Part shown: in pieces, positions 1-56,754 of the stretch
Layout of the letters: every line of letters begins with the position of its first letter
Position numbering within the stretch: position 1 is the first letter of the stretch
NCBI GenBank assembly: GCA_963678705.1
Contig: OY783208.1
Location: 15,435,782-15,499,781, forward strand
Direction: 5' to 3'
DNA from: Panorpa germanica
Taxonomy: Eukaryota; Arthropoda; Insecta; Mecoptera; Panorpidae
DNA length: 64,000 nt
Translations under genes and position numbers: made by a program
Notes under the pieces: model-generated
Database searches by the model: none
What the model saw: only the letters and a program-made list of their open reading frames with translations
Told to the model about the DNA's origin: nothing

Positions 1-430
1 TTTCTGATGTGCCCCTAGATCCTTTGTCCTCACTTTTATTTCTATGTTTCATTCTGCTTTTCTCCACTTCTATCTATTGTCATCTCTGTAAATCAAAGGG
101 ACGCTAAGATATTTTTTACTAATACGACGAATTTGTCAAATATTTTTGTCATTTGTAGAGCCTTGGCTTCCTGTAACACTTGCCAATCTTTGCTAATAAC
201 TTTTGATTCCATCTAGTTTGCAATTTACATTTTCTTTAAGTCTTCCTTAACTTTGTCTTTCGTCTCCTTCTTTGTTTCGTACTCTTTCTTCCACCGTCTG
301 GGTTCCTTCCAAGAGTTTACAAAATTTAGATTTTTAAAAGGTATACTTTTACTATATAACTTCAGCTATTGGCAATTTTGTAACTAATATCAACATTTTA
401 AATTTAAACGCCTGTTACTTTCTGTTCCAG
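1..430. other. Intron or upstream flank of the FReD gene
   Basis: AT-rich sequence with no convincing exon. It ends in a pyrimidine-rich stretch and AG at 430, read as the splice acceptor of the first visible FReD exon. The 5' exons of that gene (start codon, signal peptide) are outside the window or not recognisable here. Confidence 0.4.
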
Positions 431-573
431 ATTCCCTTCCAGACCTTAACGTTTACGGAGCGTGCAGTGATATAACTAGTATCCTCTCTGGAGTCTATTT
501 AATCCAGCCCAACAACGACATCGAGCCGTTCGAAGTATTTTGCGACATTCGCATGGACGGCGAGAAGTGGACG
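431..573 (+). CDS. Fibrinogen-related domain gene, exon a (domain start)
   Basis: First of five visible exons of a fibrinogen C-terminal (FReD) protein, the ficolin/angiopoietin/tenascin type of secreted recognition or adhesion module. The exon encodes the typical start of the fold: a Cys in 'YGACSD', 'SGVYLIQP' and 'FEVFCDIRMDGEKWT'. The acceptor is TTCCAG at 430 with a phase-1 join, and the donor is ACG|GTAACT at 573 in phase 0. The codons are more GC-rich than the flanks. Seen: the motifs and splice sites. Known: FReD domains carry this opening with its first disulphide. Inferred: the protein is secreted. The N-terminal part that would give the subfamily is not in the window, so no gene name is offered. 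Confidence 0.88.
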
Positions 574-868
574 GTAACTACTCTGACTTCATTTCTTTCT
601 TAGACATTTTCTGCTTACATGCAGGACTTTCCTTACAAGGTCAAGTTCAACATCTCAAAGATTAGTTTTGTCTAACACCGGTAGGTTATACTTAGCCAAG
701 AGTTATAAAGGTTTATTTAAGGATTAAAAGCCGTATTTAATCTAGCAAAGAATATCATCTCGCTAAACACAAAATGTAAATATTACCTTAAATATTTTTC
801 GGAAAGGAAATCATTTGTAGATAACTTTAAGATTTATTTTCTAGAAGTTTAATAAATATATATTGCAG

Positions 869-985
869 GTCATCCAGCAGCGCTTCAACGAGTCGGTTGA
901 CTTTTACAGGAACTATGCTAACTACACGGACGGGTTTGGGCCGATAAATGGAAACCATTGGCTTGGATTGGAGAAAATCCACCAG
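869..985 (+). CDS. Fibrinogen-related domain gene, exon b
   Basis: Continues the FReD fold in phase 0 from the previous exon. It encodes 'VIQQRFNESVDFYRNYANY', then 'GFG', then 'HWLGLEKIHQ', the well-known FReD block with the W-x-G-L-x-x-I-H signature. The acceptor is TATTGCAG at 868 and the donor is CAG|GTGAGG after 985. The length of 117 nt is an exact multiple of three. The 295-bp intron before it (574-868) holds nothing recognisable. Assignment to the domain family is very safe; the ligand and biological role are unknown. Confidence 0.9.
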
Positions 986-1146
986 GTGAGGTCACGATTT
1001 GTTTTTATTTTTATGTTGTGACTTTGTTTGTAAAGCGCCATTCAGTAATACCAACAGCACCGAACTAAACTCATAATCATCTGTTGTTAACTGAAAATGA
1101 AAATATGTTTAACAAACAGTTGTAACAGTTTAACTGTTACTTTCAG

Positions 1147-1291
1147 TTGACAAAAAATGGCGACCATGAACTACTCGTGCAGTTGAGAAGCCATAACTTA
1201 ACGAGAGGATACGCGCAGTACAGTGCTTTTAAAGTTGAATCAGCGAATGAGGGATTCAAATTAAGAATCTCTGGTTACAGTGGAAACGCAG
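1147..1291 (+). CDS. Fibrinogen-related domain gene, exon c
   Basis: Encodes 'LTKNGDHELLVQLR' followed by 'YAQYSAFKVESANEGFKLRISGYSGNA', the central beta-sheet part of the FReD. The acceptor is TTTCAG at 1146 and the donor is G|GTATGT after 1291, in phase 1. The next exon in the same frame lies at 26527, so the intron is about 25.2 kb long. It is filled by a Ty3/gypsy element that itself contains a Maverick-type element. Splicing still joins the frame (the split glycine codon is completed by the first two bases of the exon at 26527), so the host gene may still be functional. Confidence 0.9.
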
Positions 1292-2787
1292 GTATGTCTA
1301 ATATTTATTCCACACGCAGAACTTCCTGTATTTATTTCATCTTATCACGAGTCACATGGCCTACCAATTGTCACTTTGTCATTTTGCTTTGTAACCAATG
1401 AATACATTCCCTGGATTCGGAAACACAATTCAAATCACCTAATCCCCAGGACTTTCTCTTAAAACAAAACAGGCTAACGAGGTAAAGGTTGTCTTTATAA
1501 AATCAGTTACTTCTAAATTTTAACTCTTACAGAAAACATTAGGTTGCAATTGCAATTGTTGCAAATATTGAGCAGTAGTGTTGTAGCTGGGACATAGTGT
1601 CAGTGGCGTGTCATTTAAGTTATGCAAATACAAAACTGATAAGCTCTATAGATGACCAATTTGGTTAACAATAGGTTAATGGTTAAATTTTATGTTGAAA
1701 CCACGGTTAAAGTGAGATCAAAAACTTTAGACATTTGGTCGCCAGAAATAAATCAATTTCGTTCAAAATTAGAAGTTTCTAGATCGAAAATTGTAACTAG
1801 CATTATGATATCGATATTTGTTAGCCATTTTATATATCGTCCCACGTACTAGAGTTGAATCAGGTCGGGCTTTTTTGGAGTGCGCACTTATATGGAAAAT
1901 AAATACTAACGGCTATGAAATAAAAGTTAAATGCAAATGCCATTGTTTCTTCTTTCATATTTCTATTGATTTGCTAAATAATTGACCAATTTGTTATTTG
2001 ATAATAAATTATTTTTAAAATATTATTTTTGACATCATATAGGTTTATGCTCTTAAATATATAATCTTCTATGGATGTAATTGTTATATGGAGTAACGCA
2101 AAAAAAATTAAACCAAACTGCTGAAATGCTATATAACTAATCATGGGATTAATTTTTTTAAATTTCGAAATCCCGGAATCGTAACTATGATTCGGGATTG
2201 TATTCCCTAATTGTTTCCGACTTCTGCCGTACGGGCTATGAAGAGCGCAAATTACGAGATTCCAACGGACGAAAATATCTGGTGATAAGTTTAAAGGGCC
2301 ATGTTGTGAGCCATGCCTTAAAAAGTCGCAATATTCCAGGACAAATTATCAATTAAAATAGTTCTTTTTGTCCCTTTAATTGTTCAAGCGATCAACATTT
2401 ATAAAAAAATCAGTAATCCAATGACATCACGTCAGTTTAATATTCTCTTTCTTTCTATAAACTGACGTCACTTAAATTAAACAGAGTGTAGAGGAGATAG
2501 CATACTCAAACGTCAGGTTCTACTTACAGCTGTTTGGAGCAACGCATAAAGTTACGATATCATAAAAGTGATAAATCAAAGTTAAATATAATCGACTACT
2601 AATTATTCTAAGTCACAAAAGGGCGCTGCGGACAGGATGTGCATTAATTACTAATTTCTAGATATTAGAATGAACAGTTGGTACAATTTCCACGTCGGAT
2701 GATTAATTTAAATCTCAAATAGGTAAAGATTCCAATTCTTTACAAGTTACCAACCTTTAACAAACCTTAAAAATAAACAGAGTTAAG
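1292..2787. other. FReD intron, 5' part before the retroelement gag
   Basis: AT-rich intron sequence with no coding signal I can support. The last few hundred bases should include the 5' leader, and an LTR if one survives, of the retroelement whose gag starts at 2788. I found no clear copy of the candidate 3' LTR (25613 onward) here, so the 5' LTR is missing, too diverged, or the 3' LTR call is wrong. A short block near 2366-2385 (GTCCCTTTAATT) recurs near 29078 and, inverted, near 39850, suggesting a small dispersed repeat. Confidence 0.35.
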
Positions 2788-3993
2788 ATGAAAGCAGAGA
2801 GAAAGGAAACCGTAGAGGGAAGAAGGGAAATAAAAACGAGTAATTTAGCCGAGGGAATGTCGAACGTAGAGGCTTTTACTGAGAAAGGGGATATTAACCA
2901 ATTCTTACAAAATATTAAGCGGGTGGGGGCCCATTTCAACTGGTCTCCAGAGACTAAACTAACAGTTTTGCTTGCTAAAGTATCACAAGCAGTATTTTTC
3001 TACCTTCGAACGAACCCCAGTACCAGAGATAGTGATGATTACGCCAAAATCTGTCAAGCATTATGTGACCGACACGATAGACAAGGCCCAGCTAGAGTGT
3101 GGCAGGCCGAGCGAGATTTTGACAATTGCAAACAAAAGAATGGTGAATCCGCTTTTGAGTATGCGCAAAGACTTAGAGAGACAGGGTGGAAAATGATACC
3201 TGTAGATGCTTCCGGCAGTCTAGATGCAAACAAAGTTGCAATGATAGAAAGCTGCCTACTAGAAAAGTTCCGGGATGGAATGTTCCCACGTTACTCTAAA
3301 TATTTGTGGATAGCTGGCCCAAAGTCGTTAGAAGAGGCTGTTGAGCTCGCCGAACGTATGGAAGCCGCGGAAAATATACCACAGCGACAGGGAGCTATCG
3401 AAGCTATAACAGACGAGAATCCGGTTATGGACAACCGCACGCCGCAGGGTTACCCAAACACGAGACTCACACCGGATCAAGGCCCCTCCGCACCTAGATA
3501 CAATAATGGATGGAACAATTTTAATAACGATAGACCGATCTACAATCGACAGAACTATGCTAGAAACATAACTTGTTACTTCTGCAAGAACCCGGGACAC
3601 ATACAACGTGATTGCCGATTATTTATAAAGATGAAGACACAAAGGCCACCGGGGGAAAATGACCGCCAATATAACAGGCCCGCACAGAGACAAAATACCA
3701 ACTGGAATCCCGCGCAAGAGACAAGGGTAGGCAACCCAATAAGCAACAGCAATAGAGGTAATTATTTTAATAGAGGGCCATATAATCAAACCATACGACA
3801 ACCAGCGTTACCCCGAAAAGCTAATGTAACGGAGGTATGGCAGAGTCCGGACAGCAATCAAGCAAACGACGCAGAGATGGAGATGATGGATAGAGAGAGA
3901 CTGGATAGGTTTATCGCAGAAAGAGAACGGGTTGTTGGAGAACTGCAGCTAGAAGGAGCAACCGTTGGACACCTTGAGAATCATTTAAACTAA
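2788..3993 (+). CDS. gag: Retroelement Gag (capsid/nucleocapsid)
   Basis: An intact 401-residue ORF. Residues about 28-195 form a helical, Gag-like capsid region ('FTEKGDINQFLQNIKRVG', with conserved aromatic and Leu spacing, and 'FEYAQRLRETGWKMIP'). Residues 263-276 are a CCHC zinc knuckle, C-x2-C-x4-H-x4-C, the nucleic-acid-binding motif of nucleocapsid. The tail is rich in Asn, Arg and Gln, then acidic. Gag would package the element RNA into particles. The start ATG at 2788 follows AAG and is the first Met of the open frame. Gag stops at 3993 and pol opens in another frame only at 4038, so there is no overlap for a simple frameshift. How pol was expressed is unclear. This is the only undamaged gene of the element. 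Confidence 0.85.
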   Translation: MKAERKETVEGRREIKTSNLAEGMSNVEAFTEKGDINQFLQNIKRVGAHFNWSPETKLTVLLAKVSQAVFFYLRTNPSTRDSDDYAKICQALCDRHDRQGPARVWQAERDFDNCKQKNGESAFEYAQRLRETGWKMIPVDASGSLDANKVAMIESCLLEKFRDGMFPRYSKYLWIAGPKSLEEAVELAERMEAAENIPQRQGAIEAITDENPVMDNRTPQGYPNTRLTPDQGPSAPRYNNGWNNFNNDRPIYNRQNYARNITCYFCKNPGHIQRDCRLFIKMKTQRPPGENDRQYNRPAQRQNTNWNPAQETRVGNPISNSNRGNYFNRGPYNQTIRQPALPRKANVTEVWQSPDSNQANDAEMEMMDRERLDRFIAERERVVGELQLEGATVGHLENHLN

Positions 3994-4787
3994 CCGACAG
4001 ATCGTGCGTAAAAGAAGGCCACGGTCTAAAAGTTTAGCAAGTCCTTTATGATACCAACTTATACCCTTCCAGGTACAAAAATAAACAGTGGACAATATTT
4101 ATACGAGTACAGGGCAGAGATTGCGAGTGTCTAATAGACTCAGGGGCAGGGGTCAGTCTGATTAGGAGTGAATTTGTACAGACGCATGAAATAGTAGATT
4201 TCGACATAAATCTTAAAGACGCACAAGGTAAAACCATGTCGACGTTAGGCAAATCGAAACTTGATCTAAATATATTCGGGGAAAAGGGAAGTTTCGAGTT
4301 CTATATTTGCGACACTATAGGTTGGCTATGCATATTGGGGTTGGACTTTCTGAAAAAGTTTAATATAACCATTAATTTTGGAAGAGGGTGGATATTCCAC
4401 CGAGAAAATTTGTTCGACCTAAACTGTAGTCGGACATTACATTATCCTAGGGGTGAACTAGATATAGGTCAATTAGTTACGCAACAAATCCACAATATTT
4501 TTAATAAGGCGAAAAGAGGAGTAGGGTTTATTGTATCAAAGGCGTCAGTACCTAGACACAAGTACACAGGTGCGCCACCGGTCGACAAAACCGGATCCAA
4601 ACCAAATTTGGAAGTACATATAGAAAAACCACAAAATAGCGAAACCACGCTAACCAAATTAGGCGAGGCCAGTATCGCAGACGCAGTAGAGAACCTTAAT
4701 GCATTGCTCAAGCTAGAGCCAGAATCGTACGAAGGATTTATGAATTGGAAACTCGCGGGTTGTCCCAAAAGGGAAAAATGCTGCCAA

Positions 4788-5189
4788 ATAAACGAAATGA
4801 AGAGCGAAGCCATTAAGTTGTCGAAGAAGTATACCATCGCCTTCGGAGTAGGAGAATTATTCGCCAAAAATAAATTCGGCGATAGGTATGATGGTTTGAT
4901 ACACAAAAAGAGCACTAAAAACCAATTAGCAAAGTTGTCAATCATTAAGACGAATGATAAGTATATATATTGTATGGGGTCTAGGGCACAAGCACCAGGA
5001 AAAATAACTTATCGCGAATTATACGACATGTTGGACGATATGAAAGAGCATATTGTCGAAAATAAAATAAAGTATTTAGCACTCCCACGCATTGGAAACG
5101 GGTCATGCAGGTTAAAGAATGAAGCAATTCTTAGAATGATAGAGTATGTTTTCGCCAAGGTCAACGTCAAGATCTGCATATACGATAGC
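4788..5189 (+). other. Macrodomain (TARG1/Poa1p-like) inside retroelement pol
   Basis: Within pol, residues about 185-318 from the Met at 4236 read as a macrodomain, the ADP-ribose-binding module. Visible landmarks in order: the ligand loop 'AFGVGELFAKNKFG', the strand 'KYIYCMGS', the helix 'TYRELYDMLDDMKEHIVEN', the strand and loop 'IKYLALPRIGNG', and the last strand 'VKICIYDS'. This order and spacing match the OARD1/TARG1 class. In TARG1 the segment after the PRIG-x-G loop carries a catalytic Asp; here that position looks like Cys (GNGSCRL), and the equivalent Lys is not obvious. Binding is therefore likelier than hydrolysis, although this copy is a dead relic. The first strand is poorly conserved. 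Function in the retroelement is unknown; removal or reading of host ADP-ribosylation is a guess. Confidence 0.82.
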
Positions 5190-5851
5190 AGGACCGAAAT
5201 GCCGGAAGTAGAGAAAGCACTAAACATCGTCGAAAAAGACCGTACCACACCAACGATACAAGTCAGTAGCCTGAGGGGCACTATGGATCACAAAGTTGAA
5301 GATGACGAGAAAACAAAAATAAAATCAAACGCATCGGTCTGGGATTCGACTAAGTGGGCAAATTCACAAACAAAACTAGTGGAAAGAATACACAATAGTG
5401 AAACAGGGAGAACTGAAGTAGGATATTACAAAGACAGGGGAGAAACAGAGAAGAAAAATGACCGCTCATACATACGACTAAAATACGCGGAGGAAATACC
5501 TGCAAGAAGCAGTGTTAACGTATGGGCAACACAGAAATTAATAACAGATGGAGACATTATAATCGAGACGGATATAACGCACTTAAATAATATATTAGTA
5601 GCTAGAAGTTTGAATACGGTTCGCAATAATGATCTTATGATACGGATTACGAATGTATCCAGCAAAACCATAAATTTAAATAAAAATACGTTATTGGCAC
5701 GCGCAGAAGCACACACTGACAGCTACACAGCTATTGAAAGAGACCTAACTCAGCACCTGCTGAGTAAAAGAGACACCGATCGACGAGTATCAAGTGTTAG
5801 CAAACAACCCATAAACGAGATATGTTCGATCTCACTACCGGAAGTTAATAC

Positions 5852-5857
5852 ATCAGC
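5852..5857. repeat. Target-site duplication (left) of element A
   Basis: ATCAGC directly before the terminal AGTAGGG of element A. The same six bases follow the other terminus at 22165. Six-base duplications are the known size for Maverick/Polinton integration. Confidence 0.95.
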
Positions 5858-6120
5858 AGTAGGGTAGGAGAGCTGGTTCTGGCTTAAATTTGAAATTGAG
5901 TTGGAAATTATTGGAGTGGGGATGCAATTTAGGTCACGATATGCAGAGGGGGCGTGGCTAGACTTGGAAGAATGTAAAAGGGGGGTAAGGGTGGGGTAAG
6001 GAGTGAGGGGTAAGTGGATAAGCTGTGTTGTGATTGGTTTAGAAGATGATGACATCATTACAGACTTTATCTCTAGGTACAGTCTCTTTAATATCCGATA
6101 TGAGTGAGAAAGCAATAGTG
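5858..6120 (+). repeat. Element A terminal inverted repeat, left outer module
   Basis: Outer module shared with the right end and, more loosely, with elements B and C. It runs from the AGTAG tip through GGTTCTGGCTTAAATTT, a GGGGCGTGGC box, a TTGTGATTGGTTTAG stretch (inverted CCAAT type) and the AGTGAGAAAGCA block. The inverted repeat continues inward for kilobases; this module is the part conserved between families, so it probably holds the integrase and polymerase start signals. A promoter role for the GC and CCAAT-like boxes is inference. Confidence 0.85.
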
Positions 6121-7648
6121 GTAAAGAGTGAGATACCGATATTAATTCTTATGTTTGATTTGTTATTGGTTATAAGATTATGACGTTGTAGTAGTTATAT
6201 GTTATAATGACGTTATATTACACATGGTGGGGTATAATATGAAAGGATATAGTATAATTTGTGATATATATTCTTAAGGATTGTTAAACATAGATTATAA
6301 CAATAACTATTACAATAACAGTGTTAAATTATTTATAACAGTGTATTTATAGCGCTTCGAATTCACCAGAAATTTGCAAACAGCACATGTGTGAGAAACT
6401 TTGAACACAAGCGCATTAGTTCGAATGTAACTTGAACGTAATGGGAATGTAACTTGAAGCACATGTGTTAAAACTGTGTGAGAACGTGTTGAATACAAGC
6501 GACGAATTCACCAGAAAAAAAAAACAATATTTTCCAAACGTAGACAAATTTTTTTTGTTATACATTTCATGTTTTAGTTAAATGTAGAGCCGGATTGGGT
6601 ATTGTTGTATTAGATTATTTATTTAAGTATACTAAAAGTTATAATATACGTACATTATATCATTGATGATTCTCAAAGCATACAGTTATTTTTTTTATGT
6701 GTTGTAATAATCATAAAGTCTTATAAGTCAGACAATGGTGTTGTTTTACATATATGAGGTTATAACACCACAGTAACTGTTAAAATAGTAGGAGGATATT
6801 TTATTATACAAATTTATTAGGTAGCGGTTTGATCCATATGTATGAGGCTATATAGGTTGTGGATAATAGTAGAATCACAATTAGCTAAACCAAAAGCTCT
6901 AACTTAAGTTGAAACAAACTTTTTAAAATAAAACTGCTCGAAGGGTCGGGGGCCCCGAGAATTTTATTTATTTTGAATGCGCGGGGATGATAGAATTAAG
7001 AATTGATAGTCTGATGGTAAATATATTATAGTATTAAATAAGTAAAGTGCTACCCTGTTAAATTTTTATATTATAATTTATATATAAGTCTAAGAATATG
7101 ATTGTGTTACATTAAGTATTGTGCAGTTTGTTTATTAAATTGTCTTGCAAAGTCTTGTTCTGAGTTAGTTCTTTTTAAATAACTTGTGTTTTTAAATAAT
7201 TTAGTGGCTATTTAGTGCTATTTTAAAAAATAAATTTTATCAATAACTTCAGTTTGTAAGTGGATAATTATGTGGTAAGTAAATTTTGTATAAGATTCTG
7301 TATGTTTACAATAAATTTAATAGTAGTTTTCAAATATTTACAGGTGTCTATAGCAGTTTCAACCTAATCTTGAGTTTTTACTGTTTGAACCCTTTTAGAC
7401 TTTTATACTTATGAGCAAACAGTTAGGTAAGTTAATTTTTAATACTTTTTAGATAATTTTAATTTAGTTATAATAATAATAACAGTTTTAAATGTCAACA
7501 GAATATTGCTGTTTTGTCCCATCTCCCATTGCCAATAATTACTACCCTATAGATTGATATAACTTTGTAAGTTAATTTTTTATTGAATGTATTAAAACAA
7601 CTTAATTTAGTAGTAACTGTTTATATTAATAATAATATAAGTTTTAAA
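6121..7648. other. Inner left arm of A, non-coding
   Basis: AT-rich arm sequence mirrored almost base for base at 20375-21901. It includes one pair of the 11-bp ACGTTC-type repeat (about 6428-6455), a CGAAGGGTCGGGGGCCCCGAG block near 6940 that is strikingly GC-rich for this element, and candidate transcription signals before the ORF at 7649. No ORF with family likeness was found; the short open frames here also occur in the other arm only because the arms are copies. Confidence 0.5.
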
Positions 7649-7747
7649 ATGTCTTTAGATAACAACAACTTTTTGTGTTGTGTATACCTGTATTCAGATG
7701 ACACTTATAAGTACACCTGTCCGAAAATAGCAGAATCTGGATTACAG
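7649..7747 (+). CDS. Element A two-exon ORF, exon 1 (left arm)
   Basis: First exon of a predicted 200-residue protein. It starts at ATG 7649 and encodes 33 residues ('MSLDNNNFLCCVYLYSDDTY' onward, with further Cys in 'TCPKIAESGLQ'). The end is CAG|GTTAGT, a good donor. A 65-bp intron (7748-7812, ending TTTATAG) follows. Splicing restores one frame of 200 codons plus stop, much longer than the unspliced pieces suggest. The same exon is intact in the right arm (20276-20374). I do not recognise the protein. The clustered Cys residues may bind metal. Confidence 0.6.
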
Positions 7748-7812
7748 GTTAGTTTTTTTATTATATGTTTACCAATTAAAAAATTTAGTTATTTATATAA
7801 TTTTATTTATAG

Positions 7813-8316
7813 TTATGCCTTTATCATAGAAAGCAGCGGGCAATTGAATGTAGTGAATATCATCTTGTTAGTAATTTTTATAGATTTAAAATATTAGGTG
7901 TATCAATCAGTAAAGTAGCAAAATTAGAGGTAAATTTAAGAAAAAAATATGAGCTAAAATATAATATAATATCAGACGCACAACATGAGCATTTTAAAAA
8001 TATATTAAGAGCATTAGTAACAGGATATTTTGATGATACATATAGTGCAAATACATTACATAAATTACGTTATTTGCAATACCATTTTATTAATAAAGTT
8101 ATAGATTTGAATTTGGTTAAAAACGTATGTTGGCTTGATAAGTTTAACCATACTTTTTATTCAAAATTAGAAAAATTAAGAACAATTGAAAAGTATGACT
8201 TAGAAGTAAAAGTCAAACTTAATAAATTTGATTATTTTAAAAATAAAAATGAAATAAGTTTTTCTGTTTCATTGAATTCATTAAAGAAAGAAGAAGAAGA
8301 AGAAAATTGGGATTGA
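7813..8316 (+). CDS. Element A two-exon ORF, exon 2 (left arm)
   Basis: 167 codons in phase with exon 1, with no stop before 8314-8316. It begins 'LCLYHRKQRAIECSEYHLV', is mostly helical, Lys- and Asn-rich, and ends in an acidic stretch 'KKEEEEENWD'. The right-arm copy (19707-20210) has exactly the same length, with a few substitutions (Gly to Arg before 'YFDD', Ser to Thr in 'CSEY', Lys to Glu in the tail) and no frameshift. The neighbouring polymerase genes are full of stops and deletions. No known Maverick protein family is recognised; candidates include a DNA-binding or terminal-protein role, but nothing in the sequence decides this. Confidence 0.6.
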   Translation, partial: LCLYHRKQRAIECSEYHLVSNFYRFKILGVSISKVAKLEVNLRKKYELKYNIISDAQHEHFKNILRALVTGYFDDTYSANTLHKLRYLQYHFINKVIDLNLVKNVCWLDKFNHTFYSKLEKLRTIEKYDLEVKVKLNKFDYFKNKNEISFSVSLNSLKKEEEEENWD

Positions 8317-8951
8317 TTTTTAAATTAGCGTTATATTTTATGTGCATCTGATATTACATATAATTTTTAGCTATCAGTTGTTTTAGAATCAATATTTCGT
8401 TTTAGTTTTAATAAATATATTATAATGTATATGAAATTTATATCAACCAAAATATAAAATATTACAACAAATTATGAAGAATATTAATGGTATGGGATAC
8501 TATACATACACTGACAATGAAGATGCTAGCAATTTTTATTTTTTTTGCAAAAAATTTTTTTTAAGCTATATTTATAGTGGGGACTATTATATATATATAT
8601 ATATAAATTACGTTTAAAAAATACTTATTTTATACAGTAATTGTACGTGTAAACATATTTTACGAATGTGAAGAGTTAAATTCTAATGATATATTATTAA
8701 AAATGATAATAATTTCAAACATGTCGTATATATTAGAAGAAATATCAAAACTATTGTAATTACTTAATTTATAATATATATATAAATTTAAAATGTATTA
8801 AATTCTTTTATTTATTTATTAGGGTATAACTACATCCATTAGAATCATAATATAACATATAATTACAATCATAACAGTTTCTTATTTGAAATGGAGGACC
8901 ATCTCTTTGTATGTTTCCTTTGTTATAATGTTTGTAACATAATCGACGTCC
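8317..8951. other. Element A spacer between the spliced ORF and PolB
   Basis: Non-coding, very AT-rich, with a short TA run near 8588. At its right edge, the sequence just before 8952 does not match the PolB N-terminal coding region kept in element C. A deletion therefore removed roughly the first 170-190 codons of the polymerase here. The right arm shows the same join (near 19070-19140), so the loss predates or was copied with the palindrome. Confidence 0.55.
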
Positions 8952-11900
8952 TTGTATATTTTGATTTTCTCAAATGGTATAGAATTACCGATGAAATTAA
9001 AAGATATTAGAACATTTGAGAAGAATAATGATATAAGTGTGAATGTTTATGGACTTGAAAATAATTTCATTGTGGGATCGTTGCATTATACATCTAAAAA
9101 GAAGAAACAACATGTTAATTTATTGTATATTGAAGATTTGAGTAATGGACATTATTGTTGGATTAAAAATATATCAAGATTAATAAGGAGTCAATTTACT
9201 AAGCATACTAGTAAACAATTTTTGTGTGATGGATGCTTTTCATTTTTTAACACAGAAGATCAGTAAAATAGACGTTTAGAATATGATTGCAATAAGATAT
9301 ATACAATCCTTCCTTCTAAGTATAACGCTAAAGATAAATTGGGTAATATGATATCTCAAAACATTTTAAAATTCGATAATCATAAGAATCAATTACGCGT
9401 TCCATTTGTGATATATGGAGATTTTGAAACATTATTAAAACCCATTAGTACTTGTTATCCTGAAACTAATACATCATTTTCAAATAATATTCAAATTCAT
9501 GAACCATATTCTTTTGCTTATTATATTAAATGTTCCTTTAATGATTCCTTAAGTAAGTTTGTTACGTACAGAGGTATTAATTGCGTTAAAGTATTTATTG
9601 AAACAATAACTGAAGACGCTAAACAAATTTATAAAGTCTTAAATAAAGTGAAGCCTTTAAATAAATTATCTGATTGGCAAAAACAGGAATATGATGAAGC
9701 TTCTATTTGCCATATTTGTGAAGGTATCCTCAATGGTGATAAAGTGTTAGATCATTGTCATTTAACTGGTAATTACCGAGGAGCTGCTCATAATCATTGC
9801 AATTTAAAATTTACAATTCCAAAGTTTATACCTGTCATATTCCATAACTTAAGTAATTACGATAGCCATATAATTGTAAAAGAATTAGGTAATGATAGTG
9901 AAAAAATTTAAGTTATTCCAGAAAATAAGGAAAAGTATATATCTTTTACGAAACGTATTTTGGTGGAATCAAAAGTCGATAAAAATGATAAAGTTCATAA
10001 CTGCTATATTAAACTTAGATTTATTGATTCTTTACGATTTATGCATTCTAGTTTAGAAACACTTGCAAAAAATTTATTATCAAAACAATTTTTCGAATTA
10101 AAAAAATTCTATCCGAATGAAAATCATTTCAATTTATTAAAACGTAAAGGTGTATTTCCTTATGAATATGTAAATAGTAGGGATATGCTTAATGAATCTG
10201 ACTTGCCATCTCAAAATAATTTTTATAGCTCACTTAATGGCTGTAATATATCTGACGATGATTACAATCATGCCAAAATGGTTTGGTATGCATTTGAAAT
10301 GAAAACATTAGGGGAATATTCAGACTTATATTTAAAGATCGATGTTCTGTTGTTAACAGATATTTTTGAAAATTTTCGAGATGTGTGCTATAAAACATTA
10401 AATATACATCATTTTCAAATAATATTCAAATTCATGAACCATATTCTTTTGCTTATTATATTAAATGTTCCTTTAATGATTCCTTAAGTAAGTTTGTTAC
10501 GTACAGAGGTATTAATTGCGTTAAAGTATTTATTGAAACAATAACTGAAGACGCTAAACAAATTTGTAAAGTCTTTAATAAAGTGAAGCCTTTAAATAAA
10601 TTATCTGATTGGCAAAAACAGGAATATGATGAAGCTTCTATTTGCCATATTTGTGAAGGTATCCTCAATGGTGATAAAGTGTTAGATCATTGTCATTTAA
10701 CTGGTAATTACCGAGGAGCTGCTCATAATCATTGCAATTTAAAATTTACAATTCCAAAGTTTATACCTGTCATATTCCATAACTTAAGTAATTACGATAG
10801 CCATATAATTGTAAAAGAATTAGGTAATGATAGTGAAAAAATTGAAGTTATTCCAGAAAATAAGGAAAAGTATATATCTTTTACGAAACATATTTTGGTG
10901 GAATCAAAAGTCGATAAAAATGATAAAGTTCATAACTGCTATATTAAACTTAGATTTATTGATTTTTTACGATTTATGCATTCTAGTTTAGAAACACTTG
11001 CAAAAAATTTATTATCAGAACAATTTTTCGAATTAAAAAAATTCTATCCGAATAAAAATCATTTCAATTTATTAAAACGTAAAGGTGTATTTCCTTATGA
11101 ATATGTAAATAGTAGGGATATGCTTAATGAATCTGATTTGCCATCTCAAAATAATTTTTATAGCTCACTTAATGGCTGTAATATATCTGACGATGATTAC
11201 AATCATGCCAAAATGGTTTGGTATGCATTTGAAATGAAAACATTGGGGGAATATTCAGACTTATATTTAAAGATCGATGTTCTGTTGTTAACAGATATTT
11301 TGCTATAAAACATATAATTTAGATCCCTGTCAATATTATACAGCACCAGGACTTTCTTGGGATGCTATGTTAAAGTATACAAGTTTTGAATTAGAACTTT
11401 TAACAGATATTGATATGTTACATTTTATTAAAAAAGGTATAAGAGGTGGAATATCACAATGCTCTCACAGACATGGAATTGCAAATAATAAATATATGTC
11501 CAATTATGATTCAAATTCTCAATATTTAATGTATTGGGATGCAAATAACTAAAGCTATTGAAGATAACTCAGATGTTGGTTATATATTAGAAGTCGATTT
11601 AAGATATCCTAATTATTTGCACGATGAACACAATGATCTACCTTTCTGTGCCGAAAATATTAAACCACCTTGCATTAAAACAAATGACGTTAAATTAATA
11701 CCAAATCTAAATAACAAGTATAATTATGTGCTTCACAATAGATCGTTAAAGCAATGTCTTAAAAATAATCTGAAAATAGATAAAATTCATAGAATTTTGG
11801 AATTTAAACAGTCTGATTGGTTAAAAAGTTATATTGATCTAAATACATTAAAAAGAAAGAACTCTGCAAATACATTTGAGAAAAACTTTTTTAAATTAAT

Positions 11901-12678
11901 GAATAATTCAGTTTATGGTAAAACAATGGAAAATGTAGATAAACGTGTCGATGTAAAGTTAATAACTCATTGGGATAATATAGGAAAAACAATGGGTGCT
12001 AATACACTTATAAGTAAACCAAACTATAATAGTTGTTCTATATTTCATGAAAACTTAGTTGCTATTCAAATGCAAAAACTTAAAGTTTTTTATAATAAAC
12101 CATTGTATTTAGGATTAAGTGTACTTGATATATCAAAAACTTTAATATACGATTTTCATTATGATTTCATCAAAAAAATCTATAAAGGTAATGCTAAATT
12201 GTTGTATACAGATACAGATTCATTAATATATCAAATTAAAACAGATGATATATATGACGATATTAAGTGTAATCTAGATAAATTTGATACATCTAATTAT
12301 CCATTTAATAATGAATTTTCATTACCTTTAATGAACAAAGCTAAATAAGGCTTAATGAAAGATGAATGCGCGAGTAGTATAATTTGGGAGTTTGTTGGGT
12401 TAAGGTCAAAAATGTATGCAATTGATATTGAGGGTTCATGCACAGCTAAAGCAAAAGGAATTAAGAAAAATATTGTAAACAAATTCAATATTAAAGATTA
12501 TGTAAATTGTTTATCTCAGGATAACATATTATTGATCACAATGAATACCTTTAAATCTATTAAGCATACAATTTATACTCAAATGATAAGTAAAGTAGGT
12601 CTTAGTGGAAATGATAATAAAAGATATGTATTAACTGATGGTATAAGTACTTTAGCACATGGACATTATAAAATTTAG
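8952..12678 (+). pseudogene. polB: Type-B DNA polymerase (A family), left-arm broken copy
   Basis: Protein-primed PolB as in Mavericks and adintoviruses, which would copy the linear element. Pieces in order: a zinc-finger-like segment ('CDGCFSFFNTEDQ', stop at 9264-9266), Exo I 'FVIYGDFETLL', an endonuclease-VII-like Cys/His block ('CHICEGILNGDKVLDHCHLT'), Exo II 'NLSNYDSHII', then a tandem repeat of about 0.9 kb. After that come '[19 protein letters not shown]', motif A partly deleted ('YLMYWDANN'), motif B '[17 protein letters not shown]', motif C 'LLYTDTDSLIYQI' and a C-terminal part (12355-12678). Lesions: missing N-terminus, stop at 9264, stop at about 9909 (GAA to TAA in 'EKIEVIPEN', private to this arm), the tandem duplication, a deletion around motif A, and a stop at about 12346. 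It cannot make an active enzyme. Confidence 0.9.
9475..11300 (+). repeat. Tandem duplication inside the left-arm PolB
   Basis: About 0.9 kb of polymerase sequence (9475 to about 10385) is repeated directly at about 10414-11300. It restarts in the words 'ATCATTTTCAAATAATATTC'. The second copy differs: it keeps GAA where the first has a stop near 9909, and it lacks a roughly 20-bp piece after 'GATATTTT' (GAAAATTTTCGAG...) that the first copy has. The right arm shares that small deletion. This suggests exchange between arms or repeated template switching. Confidence 0.85.
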
Positions 12679-13228
12679 TACTAATTTTAAGTTAAGTTTA
12701 AGTTTTGTATCAATTTATATCTGTTTTAGTTAAGATAATTAAAATGTATATTTATATAACAATTGAAAAAATAGCATGATGATCATGTTAACTTTGACTT
12801 TCCAAGTTTTCTAGAGTTTAAACAAGTTTGTAATTTATGTTGGGATTCAAATAAATATTCCTTTATGGTATAAGATAATTAAAATGTATATTTATATAAC
12901 AATTGAAAAATAGCATATTTGTAAATAAATAATAATATATAAACACAAACCATTGAGTTTTATTATTATAAGATTTAATACATCCATATAAAATAAGATA
13001 CACATATTTTATTAGTAATGTTTTGTTATATATAATTTTTATATGATTAACACTGGTCATAAGAGCTCTAATATATATGCATAGACATATTAATGTATGA
13101 GTATGCATACATAAAGTGGATGACAATTGTATACGTTATATGCAGGAGCAGTACCCAACTTGAACATAATTCAACGTAACTTAAACGATGTATTTTAAAG
13201 TAACAGAAATGTATTAATTTTAGGCTTA

Positions 13229-13552
13229 ATGAAAGATGAATGCGCGAGTAGTATAATTTGGGAGTTTGTTAGGTTAAGGTCAAAAATGTATGCAATTGAT
13301 ATTGAGGGTTCATGCACAGCTAAAGCAAAAGGAATTAAGAAAAATATTGTAAACAAATTCAATATTAAAGATTATGTAAATTGTTTATCTCAGGATAACA
13401 TATTATTGATCACAATGAATACCTTTAAATCTATTAAGCATACAATTTATACTCAAATGATAAGTAAAGTAGGTCTTAGTGGAAATGATAATAAAAGTTA
13501 TGTATTAACTGATGGTATAAGTACTTTAGCACATGGACATTATAAAATTTAG
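13229..13552 (+). pseudogene. Second copy of the PolB 3' end (A family)
   Basis: Open 107-residue fragment almost identical to 12355-12678 (start 'MKDECASSIIWEFV', end 'ISTLAHGHYKI'). The region after it (13553-13720) also repeats the region after 12678. It is preceded by non-coding sequence related to the hinge (GCAGGAGCAGTACCCAACTTGAAC), so it is a fragment pasted in by rearrangement near the palindrome centre, not a gene. Differences from the first copy include Gly to Arg and Arg to Ser changes. Confidence 0.85.
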
Positions 13553-13779
13553 TACTAATTTTAAGTTAAGTTTAAGTTTTGTATAAATTTATATCTGTTT
13601 TAGTTAAGATAATTAAAATGTATATTTATATAACAATTGAAAAATAGCATATTTATAAATAAATAATAATATATAAACACAAACCATTGAGTTTTATTAT
13701 TATAAGATTTAATGTTTTAATACATCCATATAAAATAAGATACACATATTTTATTAGTAATGTTTTGTTATATATAATC

Positions 13780-13786
<7 letters not shown>

Positions 13787-13815
<29 letters not shown>
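13787..13815. repeat. (TA)n microsatellite in the A centre
   Basis: Uninterrupted alternating T and A for nearly 30 bases within the copied 3' flank of the polymerase. The other copies of this flank (near 13030, 14715, 31915) have only a short ATATATAT stretch, so the tract expanded here. Confidence 0.9.
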
Positions 13816-13818
<3 letters not shown>

Positions 13819-14100
13819 TACGTGTCACTGTGTTGTCCCCTATGGACTCCTAAACTACTTAACCGATTTTAATGAAATTTGTACACCGTGTGCAGTTTGA
13901 CCCAACTTGAAAGATAGGATAGCTTACATCTCAATTTATTTATCTTATTGCTAATTATTTGTCTATTAATTATCTGTATATGACATATGACATCGGTAAT
14001 TAACACTGGTCATAAGAGCTCTAATATATATATATGCATAGACATATTAATGTATGAGTATGCGTACATAAAGTGGATAACAATTGTATACGTTATATGC

Positions 14101-14620
14101 AGGAGCAGTACTTAACTTGAACGTACTAGGAACGTAACTTGAACGTACTAGGAACGTAACTTGCATGAACGTACTGGGAACTACGTTCCCATTACGTTTA
14201 AGTTACGTTCCCAGTACGTTCAAAAATGCTTGATGACAATTGTATACGTTATATGCAGGAGCAGTACCCAACTTGAACGTACTGGGAACGTAACTTGAAC
14301 GTATGGGAACGTAACTTGGAACGTAATTCAACGTAAGCTTACGTTGAATTACGTTCTTACGTTCCCATTATCGTGACCTAAATGCATCCCCACTATGCAG
14401 TTACGTTCCCATTACGTTCAAGTTACGTTCCCAGTACGTTCAAGTTGGGTACTGCTCCTGCATATAACGTATACAATTGTCATCAAGCATTTTTGAACGT
14501 ACTGGGAACGTAACTTAAACGTAATGGGAACGTAGTTCCCAGTACGTTCATGCAAGTTACGTTCCTAGTACGTTCAAGTTACGTTCCCAGTACGTTCAAG
14601 TTGGGTACTGCTCCTGCATA
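14101..14620. repeat. Hinge repeat array with central palindrome, element A
   Basis: Array of 11-bp half-units of the type ACGTTCCCATT and ACGTTCAAGTT (here also ACGTTCCCAGT), in both orientations. At its middle is a perfect dyad of 19 bp per arm (about 14319-14356), centred between 14337 and 14338 on AAGCTT. Around the dyad the flanks mirror each other, with GCAGGAGCAGTACC... on one side and GGTACTGCTCCTGC on the other. Inside it, 14370-14394 is a 25-bp exact copy of terminal-repeat sequence (22083-22107). The array is the symmetry centre of the palindromic element, and similar arrays lie at the hinge of B (56755-56970) and the broken end of C (31145-31388). Confidence 0.9.
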
Positions 14621-15075
14621 TAACGTATACAATTGTCATCCACTTTATGTACGCATACATTAATATGTCTATGCATATATATTAGAGCTCTTATGACCAG
14701 TGTTAATCATATAAGAATTATATATATAACAAAACATTACTAATAAAATATGTGTATCTTATTTTATATGGATGTATTAAATCTTATAATAATAAAACTC
14801 AATGGTTTGTGTTTATATATTATTATTTATTTATAAATATGCTATTTTTCAATTGTTATATAAATATACATTTTAATTATCTTATAGCATAAAGGAATAT
14901 TTATTTGAATCTCAACATAAATTACAAACTTGTTTAAACTCTAGAAAACTTGGAAAGTCAAAGTTAACATGATCATCATGCTATTTTTCAATTGTTATAT
15001 AAATATACATTTTAATTATCTTAACTAAAACAGATATAAATTTATACAAAACTTAAACTTAACTTAAAATTAGTA

Positions 15076-18000
15076 CTAAATTTTATAATGTCCATGTGCT
15101 AAAGTACTTATACCATCAGTTAATACATATCTTTTATTATCATTTCCACTAAGACCTACTTTACTTATCATTTGAGTATAAATTGTATGCTTAATAGATT
15201 TAAAGGTATTCATTGTGATCAATAATATGTTATCCTGAGATAAACAATTTACATAATCTTTAATATTGAATTTGTTTACAATATTTTTCTTAATTCCTTT
15301 TGCTTTAGCTGTGCATGAACTCTCAATATCAATTGCATACATTTTTTGACCTTAACCCAACAAACTCCCAAATTATACTACTCGCGCATTCATCTTTCAT
15401 TAAGCCTAATTTAGCTTTGTTCATTAAAGGTAATGAAAATTCATTATTAAATGGATAATTAGATGTATTAAATTTATCTAGATTACACTTAATATCGGCA
15501 TATATATCATCTGTTTTAATTTGATATATTAATGAATCTGTATCTGTATATTGTTTCAATAAATACTTTAACGCAATTAATACTTCTGTACGTAACAAAC
15601 TTACTTAAGAATCATTAAGGGAACATTTAATATAATAAGCAAAACAATATGGTTCATGAATTTGAATATTATTTGAAAATGATGTATTAGTTTCAGGATA
15701 ACAAGTACTAATGGGTTTTAATAATGTTTCAAAATCTCCATATATCACAAATGGAACGCGTAATTGATTCTTATGAATATCGAATTTTAAAATGTTTTGA
15801 GATATCATATTACCCAATTTATCTTTAGCGTTATACTTAGAAGGAAGGATTGTATATATGTTATTGCAATCATATTCTAAATGTCTATTTAACTGATCTT
15901 CTGTGTTAAAAAATGAAAAGCATCCATCACACAAAAATTGTTTACTAATATGCTTAGTAAATTGACTTCTTATTAATCTTGATATATTTTTTAATCCAAC
16001 AATAATGTCCATTACTCAAATCTTCAATATACAATAAATTAACATGTTGTTTCTTCTTTTTAGATGTATAATGCAACGGTCCCACAATGAAATTATTTTC
16101 AAGTCCATAAACATTCACACTTATATCATTATTCTTCTCAAATGTTCTAATATCTTTTAATTTCATCGGTAATTCTATACCATTTGAGAAAATCAAAATA
16201 TACAAGGACGTCGATTATGTTACAAACATTATAACAAAGGAAACATACAAAGAGATGGTCCTCCATGTCAAATAAGAAACTGTTATGATTGTAATTATAT
16301 GTTATATTAATTTAACGTCATTTGTTTTAATGCAAGGTGGTTTAATATTTTCGGCACAGAAAGGTAGATCATTGTGTTCATCGTGCAAATAATTAGGATA
16401 TCTTAAATCGACTTCTAATATATAACCAACATCTGAGTTATCTTCAATAGCTTTAGTTATTTGCATCCCAATACATTAAATATTGAGAATCTTTATTTGA
16501 ATCATAATTGGACATATATTTATTATTTGCAATTCCATGTCTGTGAGAGCATTGTGATATTCCACCTCTTATACCTTTTTTAATAAAATGTAACATATCA
16601 ATATCTGTTAAAAGTTCTAATTCAATACTTGTATAATTTAACATAGCATCCCAAGAAAGTCCTGGTGCTGTATAATATTGACAGGGATCTAAATTATATG
16701 TTTTATAGCAAAATATCTGTTAACAACAGAACATCGATCTTTAAATATAAGTCTGAATATTCCCCCAATGTTTTCATTTCAAATGCATACCAAACCATTT
16801 TGGCATGATTGTAATCATCGTCAGATATATTACAGCCATTAAGTGAGCTATAAAAATTATTTTGAGATGGCAAGTCAGATTCATTAAGCATATCCCTACT
16901 ATTTACATATTCATAAGGAAATACACCTTTACGTTTTAATAAATTGATTGGTTTACTTATAAGTGTATTAGCACCCATTGTTTTTCCTATATTATCCCAA
17001 TGAGTTATTAACTTTACATCGACACGTTTATCTACATTTTCTATTGTTTTACCATAAACTGAATTATTCATTAATTTAAAAAAGTTTTTTCTCAAATGTA
17101 TTTGCAGAGTTCTTTCTTTTTAATGTATTTAGATCAATATAACTTTTTAACTAATCAGACTGTTTAAATTCCAAAATTCTATGAATTTTATCTATTTTCA
17201 GATTATTTTTAAGACATTGCTTTAACGATCTATTGTGAAGCACATAATTATACTTGTTATTTAGATTTGGTATTAATTTAACGTCATTTGTTTTAATGCA
17301 AGGTGGTTTAATATTTTCGGCACAGAAAGGTAGATCATTGTGTTCATCGTGCAAATAATTAGGATATCTTAAATCGACTTCTAATATATAACCAACATCT
17401 GAGTTATCTTCAATAGCTTTAGTTATTTGCATCCCAATACATTAAATATTGAGAATCTTTATTTGAATCATAATTGGACATATATTTATTATTTGCAATT
17501 CCATGTCTGTGAGAGCATTGTGATATTCCACCTCTTATACCTTTTTTAATAAAATGTAACATATCAATATCTGTTAAAAGTTCTAATTCAATACTTGTAT
17601 AATTTAACATAGCATCCCAAGAAAGTCCTGGTGCTGTATAATATTGACAGGGATCTAAATTATATGTTTTATAGCAAAATATCTGTTAACAACAGAACAT
17701 CGATCTTTAAATATAAGTCTGAATATTCCCCCAATGTTTTCATTTCAAATGCATACCAAACCATTTTGGCATGATTGTAATCATCGTCAGATATATTACA
17801 GCCATTAAGTGAGCTATAAAAATTATTTTGAGATGGCAAGTCAGATTCATTAAGCATATCCCTACTATTTACATATTCATAAGGAAATACACCTTTACGT
17901 TTTAATAAATTGAAATGATTTTCATTCGGATAGAATTTTTTAATTCGAAAAATTGTTCTGATAATAAATTTTTTGCAAGTGTTTCTAAACTAGAATGCAT

Positions 18001-19071
18001 AAATCTAAGTTTAATATAGCAGTTATGAACTTTATCATTTTTATCGACTTTTGATTCCACCAAAATATGTTTCGTAAAAGATATATACTTTTCCTTATTT
18101 TCTGGAATAACTTCAATTTTTTCACTATCATTACCTAATTCTTTTACAATTATATGGCTATCGTAATTACTTAAGTTATGGAATATGACAGGTATAAACT
18201 TTGGAATTGTAAATTTTAAATTGCAATGATTATGAGCAGCTCCTCGGTAATTACCAGTTAAATGACAATGATCTAACACTTTATCACCATTGAGGATACC
18301 TTCACAAATATGGCAAATAGAAGCTTCATCATATTCCTGTTTTTGCCAATCAGATAATTTATTTAAAGGCTTCACTTTATTTAAGACTTTATAAATTTGT
18401 TTAGCGTCTTCAGTTATTGTTTCAATAAATACTTTAACGCAATTAATACCTCTGTACGTAACAAACTTACTTAAGGAATCATTAAAGGAACATTTAATAT
18501 AATAAGCAAAAGAATATGGTTCATGAATTTGAATATTATTTGAAAATGATGTATTAGTTTCAGGATAACAAGTACTAATGGGTTTTAATAATGTTTCAAA
18601 ATCTCCATATATCACAAATGCAACGCGTAATTGATTCTTATGATTATCGAATTTTAAAATGTTTTGAGATATCATATTACCCAATTTATCTTTAGCGTTA
18701 TACTTAGAAGGAAGGATTGTATATATCTTATTGCAATCATATTCTAAACGTCTATTTTACTGATCTTCTGTGTTAAAAAATGAAAAGCATCCATCACACA
18801 AAAATTGTTTACTAGTATGCTTAGTAAATTGACTTCTTATTAATCTTGATATATTTTTAATCCAACAATAATGTCCATTACTCAAATCTTCAATATACAA
18901 TAAATTAACATGTTGTTTCTTCTTTTTAGATGTATAATGCAACGATCCCACAATGAAATTATTTTCAAGTCCATAAACATTCACACTTATATCATTATTC
19001 TTCTCAAATGTTCTAATATCTTTTAATTTCATCGGTAATTCTATACCATTTGAGAAAATCAAAATATACAA
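15076..19071 (-). pseudogene. polB: Type-B DNA polymerase (A family), right-arm scrambled copies
   Basis: Read on the minus strand from 19071. The N-terminal part (19071-17902: zinc finger with the same stop as the left arm, Exo I, endonuclease-VII-like block, Exo II) loses frame near 17930 and continues to 17669. Then come a middle piece (17610-17419, '[16 protein letters not shown]', then 17432-17151) and a repeat of the middle with motif B joined backwards to upstream sequence (17095-16703, then 16644-16453). Next is a second N-terminal piece (16205-15605) in which the 'NTEDQLNRHLEYD' site is intact, fused at about 15600 to the C-terminal part with motif C lost (15598-15076). So at least three partial copies are chained by deletions and duplications. 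The outer part is the inverted twin of the left arm; the inner part is private to this arm. Confidence 0.85.
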
Positions 19072-19706
19072 GGACGTCGATTATGTTACAAACATTATAA
19101 CAAAGGAAACATACAAAGAGATGGTCCTCCATGTCAAATAAGAAACTGTTATGATTGTAATTATATGTTATATTATGATTCTAATGGATGTAGTTATACC
19201 CTAATAAATAAATAAAAGAATTATATACATTTTAAATTTATATATATATTATAAATTAAGTAATTACAATAGTTTTGATATTTCTTCTAATATATACGAC
19301 ATGTTTGAAATTATTATCATTTTTAATAATATATCATTAGAATTTAACTCTTCACATTCGTAAAATATGTTTACACGTACAATTACTGTATAAAATAAGT
19401 ATTTTTTAAACGTAATTTATATATATATATATATAATAGTCCCCACTATAAATATAGCTTAAAAAAAAATTTTTGCAAAAAAAATAAAAATTGCTAGCAT
19501 CTTCATTGTCAGTGTATGTATAGTATCCCATACCATTAATATTCTTCATAATTTGTTGTAATATTTTATATTTTGGTTGATATAAATTTCATATACATTA
19601 TAATATATTTATTAAAACTAAAACGAAATATTGATTCTAAAACAACTGATAGCTAAAAATTATTTGTAATATCAGATGCACATAAAATATAACGCTAATT
19701 TAAAAA

Positions 19707-20210
19707 TCAATCCCAATTTTCTTCTTCTTCTTCTTCCTTTAATGAATTCAATGAAACAGAAAAACTTATTTCATTTTTATTTTTAAAATAATCAAATTTA
19801 TTAAGTTTGACTTTTACTTCTAAGTCATACTTTTCAATTGTTCTTAATTTTTCTAATTTTGAATAAAAAGTATGGTTAAACTTATCAAGCCAACATACGT
19901 TTTTAACCAAATTCAAATCTATAACTTTATTAATAAAATGGTATTGCAAATAGCGTAATTTATGTAATGTATTTGCACTATATGTATCATCAAAATATCT
20001 TGTTACTAATGCTCTTAATATATTTTTAAAATGCTCATGTTGTGCGTCTGATATTATATTATATTTTAGCTCATATTTTTTTCTTAAATCTACCTCTAAT
20101 TTTGCTACTTTACTGATTGATACACCTAATATTTTAAATCTATAAAAATTACTAACAAGATGATATTCAGTACATTCAATTGCCCGCTGCTTTCTATGAT
20201 AAAGGCATAA
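19707..20210 (-). CDS. Element A two-exon ORF, exon 2 (right arm)
   Basis: Inverted twin of 7813-8316. It has the same 504-nt length, no frameshift and no early stop, and the acidic tail reads 'KEEEEEENWD'. The few differences from the left copy are substitutions. Finding both copies open after the arms began to diverge is the main reason to treat this as a real gene. Function is not recognised. Confidence 0.58.
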   Translation of the reverse strand, partial: LCLYHRKQRAIECTEYHLVSNFYRFKILGVSISKVAKLEVDLRKKYELKYNIISDAQHEHFKNILRALVTRYFDDTYSANTLHKLRYLQYHFINKVIDLNLVKNVCWLDKFNHTFYSKLEKLRTIEKYDLEVKVKLNKFDYFKNKNEISFSVSLNSLKEEEEEENWD

Positions 20211-20275
20211 CTATAAATAAAATTATATAAATAACTAAATTTTTTAATTGGTAAACATATAATAAAAAAACTAAC

Positions 20276-20374
20276 CTGTAATCCAGATTCTGCTATTTTC
20301 GGACAGGTGTACTTATAAGTGTCATCTGAATACAGGTATACACAACACAAAAAGTTGTTGTTATCTAAAGACAT
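20276..20374 (-). CDS. Element A two-exon ORF, exon 1 (right arm)
   Basis: Inverted twin of 7649-7747: ATG at 20374, 33 codons, the same donor. The 65-bp intron (20211-20275) keeps the GTTAGT donor and TTTATAG acceptor. Spliced, it gives the same 200-residue protein as the left arm, with a handful of substitutions. Confidence 0.58.
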
Positions 20375-21901
20375 TTTAAAACTTATATTATTATTAATAT
20401 AAACAGTTACTACTAAATTAAGTTGTTTTAATACATTCAATAAAAAATTAACTTACAAAGTTATATCAATCTATAGGGTAGTAATTATTGGCAATGGGAG
20501 ATGGAACAAAACAGCAATATTCTGTTGACATTTAAAACTGTTATTATTATTATAACTAAATTAAAATTATCTAAAAAGTATTAAAAATTAACTTACCTAA
20601 CTGTTTGCTCATAAGTATGAAAGTCTAAAAGGGTTCAAACAGTAAAAACTCAAGATTAGGTTGAAACTGCTATAGACACCTGTAAATATTTGAAAACTAC
20701 TATTAAATTTATTGTAAACATACAAAATCTTATACAAAATTTACTTACCACATAATTATCCACTTACAAACTGAAATTATTGATAAAATTTTTTTTTTAA
20801 AATAGCACTAAATAGCCACTAAATTATTTAAAAACACAAGTTATTTAAAAAGAACTAACTCAGAACAAGACTTTGCAAGACAATTTAATAAACAAACTGC
20901 ACAATACTTAATATAACACAATCATATTCTTAGACTTATATATAAATTATAATATAAAAATTTAACAGGGTAGCACTTTACTTATTTAATACTATAATAT
21001 ATTTACCATCAGACTATCAATTCTTAATTCTATCATCCCCGCGCATTCAAAATAAATAAAATTCTCGGGGCCCCCGACCCTTCGAGCAGTTTTATTTTAA
21101 AAAGTTTGTTTCAACTTAAGTTAGAGCTTTTGGTTTAGCTTATTGTGATTCTACTATTATCCACAACCTATATAGCCTCATACATATGGATCAAACCGCT
21201 ACCTAATAAATTTGTATAATAAAATATCCTCCTACTATTTTAACAGTTACTGTGGTGTTATAACCTCATATATGTAAAACAACACCATTGTCTGACTTAT
21301 AAGACTTTATGATTATTACAACACATAAAAAAAATAACTGTATGCTTTGAGAATCATCAATGATATAATGTACGTATATTATAACTTTTAGTATACTTAA
21401 ATAAATAATCTAATACAACAATACCCAATCCGGCTCTACATTTAACTAAAACATGAAATGTATAACAAAAAAAATTTGTCTACGTTTGGAAAATATTGTT
21501 TTTTTTTTCTGGTGAATTCGTCGCTTGTATTCAATACGTTCTCACACAGTTTTAACACATGTGCTTCAAGTTACATTCCCATTACGTTCAAGTTACATTC
21601 GAACTAATGCGCTTGTGTTCAAAGTTTCTCACACATGTGCTGTTTGCAAATTTCTGGTGAATTCGAAGCGCTATAAATACACTGTTATAAATAATTTAAC
21701 ACTGTTATTGTAATAGTTATTGTTATAATCTATGTTTAACAATCCTTAAGAATATATATCACAAATTATACTATAACCTTTTATATTATACCCCACCATG
21801 TGTAATATAACGTCATTATAACATATAACTACTACAACGTCATAATCTTATAACCAATAACAAATCAAACATAAGAATTAATATCGGTATCTCACTCTTT
21901 A
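20375..21901. other. Inner right arm of A, non-coding
   Basis: Inverted copy of 6121-7648 with few differences. It includes the same lone 11-bp repeat pair (about 21570-21600), here ATTCCCATTACGTTCAAGTT, and the GC-rich CTCGGGGCCCCCGACCC block near 21063. No gene supported. Confidence 0.5.
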
Positions 21902-56744: not shown

Positions 56745-56754
56745 TTCAAATTAC

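Follow-up and report, generated by a model that had tools for sequence, protein, structure and literature searches.

What is a domain resembling the hydrolase TARG1 doing in the pol gene of a retrotransposon? The question is raised by a Ty3/gypsy element in a stretch of 64,000 nucleotides of Panorpa germanica (assembly GCA_963678705.1, contig OY783208.1, positions 15,435,782 to 15,499,781 of the forward strand), referred to here in full as the window, for which a first-pass annotation made from the letters alone had proposed a TARG1-type macrodomain between the protease and the reverse transcriptase (RT). At a probability of roughly 0.5, we favor the interpretation that the element took up a cellular TARG1-type macrodomain, which adds a domain to its pol and would act as a reader of ADP-ribose. 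The features on which this depends are as follows.

4818 to 5183, plus strand: TARG1-type (ALC1-like) macrodomain between protease and RT, from sequence, profile and structure matches
4983 to 4985, plus strand: codon aligned to Lys84 of TARG1, Arg in the window
5094 to 5102, plus strand: GxG diphosphate-binding loop motif (GNG), kept
5106 to 5108, plus strand: codon aligned to Asp125 of TARG1, Cys in the window

The domain is homologous to TARG1-type macrodomains, as judged from sequence comparison. When the pol translation starting at 4236, in which all four motifs quoted by the first-pass annotation are present, was compared with PDB chains by phmmer, human TARG1 (C6orf130) was matched at E 4.1e-14 (55.5 bits) over residues 195-316, i.e. 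window positions 4818-5183. Five TARG1 sequences stood at E 4e-14 and the next match came only at E 0.8; with a significant TARG1 match and no other class scoring better in this search, the domain belongs to the ALC1-like, or TARG1, type. A profile search against macrodomain families had been named as the check on the proposal, and its outcome was divided: PHROG 335, labeled 'phosphatase', matched at E 3.4e-9, the NCBIfam DarG model at E 4.3e-6 (26 bits, against a model cutoff of 250), and hhalign aligned the domain to a profile of the RNase H-integrase segments of six other gypsy pols at 94.9% (E 4.4e-8; two of the six, P0026 and P0093, later failed a leave-one-out test), but the Pfam Macro model gave 12.4 bits, below its cutoff of 22. 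Foldseek and VIA-align, applied to a predicted structure of modest confidence, ranked TARG1 first, with DarG second among the structural matches; the fold is that of a macrodomain, and identity to TARG1 in the structural alignment is 28%. A single-sequence structure model was discarded as too poor (predicted local distance difference test, pLDDT, of 43). The proposed TARG1-type identity is thus upheld by phmmer, PHROG, NCBIfam, hhalign, Foldseek and VIA-align. That the likeness is due to chance and the domain is not homologous to macrodomains, for which the low Pfam Macro score could be cited, is refuted by the TARG1 match and the concordant profile and structure results, and we regard it as next to impossible. 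The five best matches of the structure model in BFVD include uncharacterized proteins of invertebrate iridescent virus 6 and Orpheovirus and a putative VP8 of Kadipiro virus, possibly further TARG1-like domains.

The surroundings of the domain are those of a Ty3/gypsy element, in which gag and protease are followed by RT, RNase H and integrase in this order (ORF, open reading frame; LTR, long terminal repeat, below).

2788 to 3993, plus strand: gag ORF of 401 amino acids (aa) with one CCHC zinc knuckle (PF00098, E 9.6e-6)
4038 to 5857, plus strand: pol part 1, open to the insertion point, with protease motif LIDSGAG at 4131
5852 to 5857, plus strand: left copy of the 6-bp target-site duplication ATCAGC
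5858 to 22164, no strand given: 16.3-kb foldback DNA element, Maverick/Polinton-like, interrupting pol between macrodomain and RT
22165 to 22170, plus strand: right copy of the 6-bp target-site duplication ATCAGC
22171 to 23236, plus strand: pol part 2, reverse transcriptase, with YLDD at 22892 and an in-frame stop next at 23237-23239
23240 to 25291, plus strand: pol part 3, RNase H, integrase H2C2 and core, from domain matches

The domain sits within about 606 stop-free pol codons. The stop at 5865-5867 that ends the first pol ORF belongs already to the inserted element, and beyond 22170 the pol frame is resumed without a change of phase (2 and 2). Since the phase is the same and RT follows 22170, the macrodomain lies between the protease and the RT of one pol. 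The claim that it is in frame within a Ty3/gypsy pol therefore stands, as does the placement between protease and RT in so far as a single pol with a continuing frame is meant; RT is, however, not adjacent, the 16.3-kb insert, which is younger than the pol it interrupts, standing between. In GC content the domain (0.385) differs little from the other pol parts (0.389-0.43), gag having 0.451, but at third positions its GC (0.481) exceeds that of each of the five other parts.

In TARG1, Lys84 is the nucleophile, Asp125 resolves the intermediate and the GxG loop binds the diphosphate, the published pattern being TKx(30,35)Px[IL]GxGxD, according to PMC6397177. This pattern fails in the window domain, as Thr83 (Ser in the window), Lys84 and Asp125 are all replaced, and the Lys84 and Asp125 pair that marks a catalytic TARG1 hydrolase is absent. 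The replacement of the catalytic Asp by Cys had been noticed beforehand and is confirmed at 5106 by the alignment to TARG1; that of Lys84 by Arg at 4983, a second catalytic replacement, had been overlooked. Kept are Ser35, Pro118, both Gly of the GxG loop and the last (C-terminal) Tyr, and the combination of GxG loop and Pro118 is that of the ALC1-like class.

On these grounds it can be hypothesized that a TARG1-type macrodomain of cellular origin was acquired by a Ty3/gypsy retrotransposon and came to lie between the protease and RT of its pol. From the residues kept in the pocket we infer that the domain binds ADP-ribose, or an ADP-ribosylated protein or nucleic acid, and it would not remove ADP-ribose by the TARG1 Lys/Asp reaction. 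As a reader, or tether, it would keep Pol products on ADP-ribosylated host factors, e.g. chromatin or nucleic-acid ends modified by PARP, while reverse transcription or integration proceeds. In the case of chikungunya virus, ADP-ribose binding and not hydrolysis has been suggested as the selected property (PMC12632316). Drosophila is described as having three TARG1 homologues and PARP-dependent ADP-ribosylation at DNA damage (PMC10238386), so that insects do offer ADP-ribosylated chromatin as well as genes from which the domain could have come. A possible action against PARP-based defense, as the first-pass annotation had suggested, is not favored: the domain has other residues at both positions of the TARG1 reaction, insect-restricted alphaviruses are described as having lost catalytic macrodomain residues, and antiviral PARPs are, per a review (PMC7729036), absent from mosquito genomes.

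For comparison with other gypsy elements, the 684-aa RNase H-integrase ORF was used as the query; the 7,985 candidates sharing most words were scored, 862 proteins reached E <=1e-10, and the best 120 of these 862 were examined as relatives. The search had an upper size limit of about 1,197 aa, against the about 1,647 codons that a pol such as the one in the window would take up; given this limit and the few relatives complete for protease and YxDD motifs, window-like relatives could be missed. TARG1-like domains were found at another site, between RNase H and integrase: phmmer with a 388-aa window query matched three of the 120 relatives there (P0030, P0028 and P0093), the domain alone matched two (P0030 and P0028), and a subsequent profile search added P0066 and P0042. 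Excised segments matched TARG1 at 6.5e-8 (P0030), 1.3e-7 (P0028) and 4.7e-4 (P0066, from Osmia lignaria), and that of P0042, the weakest of the four, had no TARG1 match of its own. A six-segment profile built without the window finds TARG1 at 1e-13; polyubiquitin matches lower in that search (2e-6) look spurious. The leave-one-out test over 121 sequences was passed by the window (9.5e-12), P0030 (7.6e-15), P0028 (9.4e-16), P0066 (2.8e-10) and P0042 (6.6e-6), and the bearers are counted as 4/120. P0026 and P0093 were dropped (best E 1.0 and 1.4), the latter in spite of its weak direct match to the 388-aa query (4e-4), and many weak extra hits of the first profile were not counted, since that profile included residues adjoining the integrase zinc domain; trimmed profiles were then rebuilt. 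P0030 keeps the equivalents of both Lys84 and Asp125, P0028 the Lys only, and P0066 and P0042 neither. Three further relatives, P0083, P0119 and P0062, form a supported trio (100/98) sharing a long RNase H-integrase spacer that resembles the others on visual inspection; it was rejected (hhalign probability 5.5%, E 0.007; no PDB match to TARG1) and could be some other accessory domain or one that is very degraded.

Placement between protease and RT was encountered neither in the viral contigs, genome contigs and phages searched, nor in any of four gypsy-like contigs from metagenome-assembled genomes, for which all 24 frames were scanned for the domain. A protein-database search with residues 140-330 of the 543-aa ORF yielded 671 candidates (about 299-950 aa), none with the domain at that place, and one with the domain alone yielded 58 candidates, none of them positive, at a sensitivity low enough that TARG1 proteins themselves were missed. 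A match in the protease-RT linker of P0022 was at chance level (0.017).

Several points weigh against a reader function. TARG1 H32 and C33 of loop 1 fall outside the scored alignment and are not confirmed in the window, the N-terminal part of the structure model is of low confidence, and the GxG loop is degraded in P0028, P0066 and P0042, which suits a structural role there. Chikungunya mutants are reported to replicate as usual in mosquito cells and to show mixed effects in the mosquitoes themselves (PMC12632316). The element is known from one copy, broken by the insertion, by the stop at 23237 and by substitutions at one position each in RNase H and integrase at which 16/16 aligned relatives agree, so that the replaced catalytic residues may reflect decay of that copy. 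In none of the 120 relatives, all of them proteins of up to about 1,197 aa, was a domain detected between protease and RT, both flanking motifs (protease and YxDD) being seen in 34 of them. Fixation of this position in a lineage does not find support here. This one instance, the defective state of the copy and the replaced catalytic residues are what would be expected if a single copy had transduced a host TARG1 cDNA that is functionless and decays with the element. This explanation, the next in order after the reader, is nevertheless unlikely, as the long stop-free stretch of pol around the domain, a recognizable fold with pocket residues kept at 28% identity, and the TARG1-like domains of other gypsy elements all argue against it.

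Somewhat less probable is that the domain removes ADP-ribose from the nucleic-acid ends of the element or from Pol proteins by a chemistry other than Lys/Asp, perhaps with the new Cys. Both K84 and D125 are replaced in the window, and the Cys occupies the loop-3 Asp position, at which no homolog known to us employs a Cys; on the other hand, P0030, with its domain at the other pol site, retains Lys and Asp, and DarG follows TARG1 as the next-best structural match. DarG, with the Lys of the dyad only, and SCO6735, with neither residue, are treated as hydrolases, and TARG1 itself cleaves ADP-ribose phosphoesters at nucleic-acid termini (PMC7050489), so that a missing dyad speaks against the TARG1 reaction without proving the domain inactive. 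More improbable still is a scaffold, in which the macrodomain fold persists only to space out the Pol polyprotein or to offer it a surface for protein contacts, and binds no ligand: the pocket motifs of P0028, P0066 and P0042 are largely gone while the fold core is still recognizable, but the window copy still has its GxG loop, P118 and S35. The reader, or tether, is the function that we favor.

How often such domains were captured can be approached from a maximum-likelihood tree of RNase H and integrase with 43 rows (of the 116 in a quick tree). The four bearers fall within a 29-row group (100/99), and the window, on an end branch of 1.11, falls outside a 34-row group (100/99) that contains this 29-row group. 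As one clade the four bearers appeared in 0% of 200 bootstrap trees, and the strict four-bearer label needs four changes on the 43-row tree. Clustering of bearers on the quick tree was set aside, having used nine labels that later became four; the strict four were no more clustered than shuffled labels. The element in the window differs from the bearers both in lineage and in the site of the domain within pol, which suggests that its domain was acquired independently of that before integrase, and hence that TARG1-like domains were captured at least twice in the gypsy group, the alternative being one old domain that moved within pol and was often lost. A doubtful extension is that TARG1-type macrodomains are a recurrent, unannotated Pol module of animal Ty3/gypsy elements, captured at least twice, before RT or integrase, that reads ADP-ribose marks on DNA ends or chromatin and steers integration. 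If true, such a module would be the ADP-ribose counterpart of the chromodomain.

Among known systems, TARG1 (OARD1, C6orf130; ALC1-like) is the best match in sequence and structure and has the GxG loop, Pro118, Ser35 and C-terminal Tyr in common with the window domain, which differs in being embedded in a retrotransposon pol and in the replacement of Thr83, Lys84 and Asp125. The DarG macrodomain is that of an antitoxin from a bacterial toxin-antitoxin gene, and the window scores far under its family cutoff. Alphavirus nsP3 and coronavirus Mac1 provide examples of RNA-virus macrodomains, which are likewise part of a replication polyprotein, and insect-restricted alphaviruses are described as having lost catalytic macrodomain residues, as in the window (PMC7729036); the alphavirus and coronavirus domains are, however, treated as MacroD-like and not TARG1-like, and these are RNA viruses without reverse transcription. 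Comparable in kind are AlkB captured by an orchid Gypsy element (PMC9289625), DNMTs in retrotransposons (PMC5890265) and the chromodomain, named with exonuclease and helicase as a retroelement domain (PMC6338049). In the AlkB, DNMT and chromodomain LTR elements, too, a retroelement gained a host domain handling nucleic-acid or chromatin marks, and the available passages of these accounts name no ADP-ribose domain. Among the papers listed in literature searches, titles and abstract openings describe no macrodomain in a retroelement, full texts and most subscription journals being outside that scope; PMC8195603, which has both macro domain and retroelement wording, appears to concern bacterial genes. 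Capture of host domains by retroelements is already known, and the macrodomain would be a new variation on it. Captured domains reveal host pathways that bear on the retroelement, and an ADP-ribose-binding domain in Pol, if true, would tie LTR-element replication to PARP signaling. Since such domains fall short of the Pfam Macro cutoff or draw no score from that model, other gypsy polyproteins may contain more of them without annotation.

As to the remainder of the locus, the protease is called from the LIDSGAG motif, no Pfam protease match being found in pol. The gag and pol frames do not overlap and are 44 bases apart; in the stretch concerned (3994-4236), the pol frame has its first ATG at 4236, 3' of the protease active-site motif. 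No LTR pair was found by blastn of 1-4100 against the window, which gave the self-match only, 25291-32000 being covered only among the matches listed. The terminal inverted repeats of the insert start from AGTAGGGTAGGAG, and the first 4.5 kb of its arms are 99% identical. Terminal inverted repeats starting with AG and a 6-bp target-site duplication are diagnostic of Maverick/Polinton elements; the insert has both, and we take it to be Maverick/Polinton-like. Related elements lie at 31903-38800 and 50825-63227, and it is from the ORFs of these copies that matches to type B DNA polymerase and endonuclease VII-like domains come. The arm at 50.8-56.8 kb is repeated almost perfectly, in inverted orientation, at 57.3-63.2 kb.
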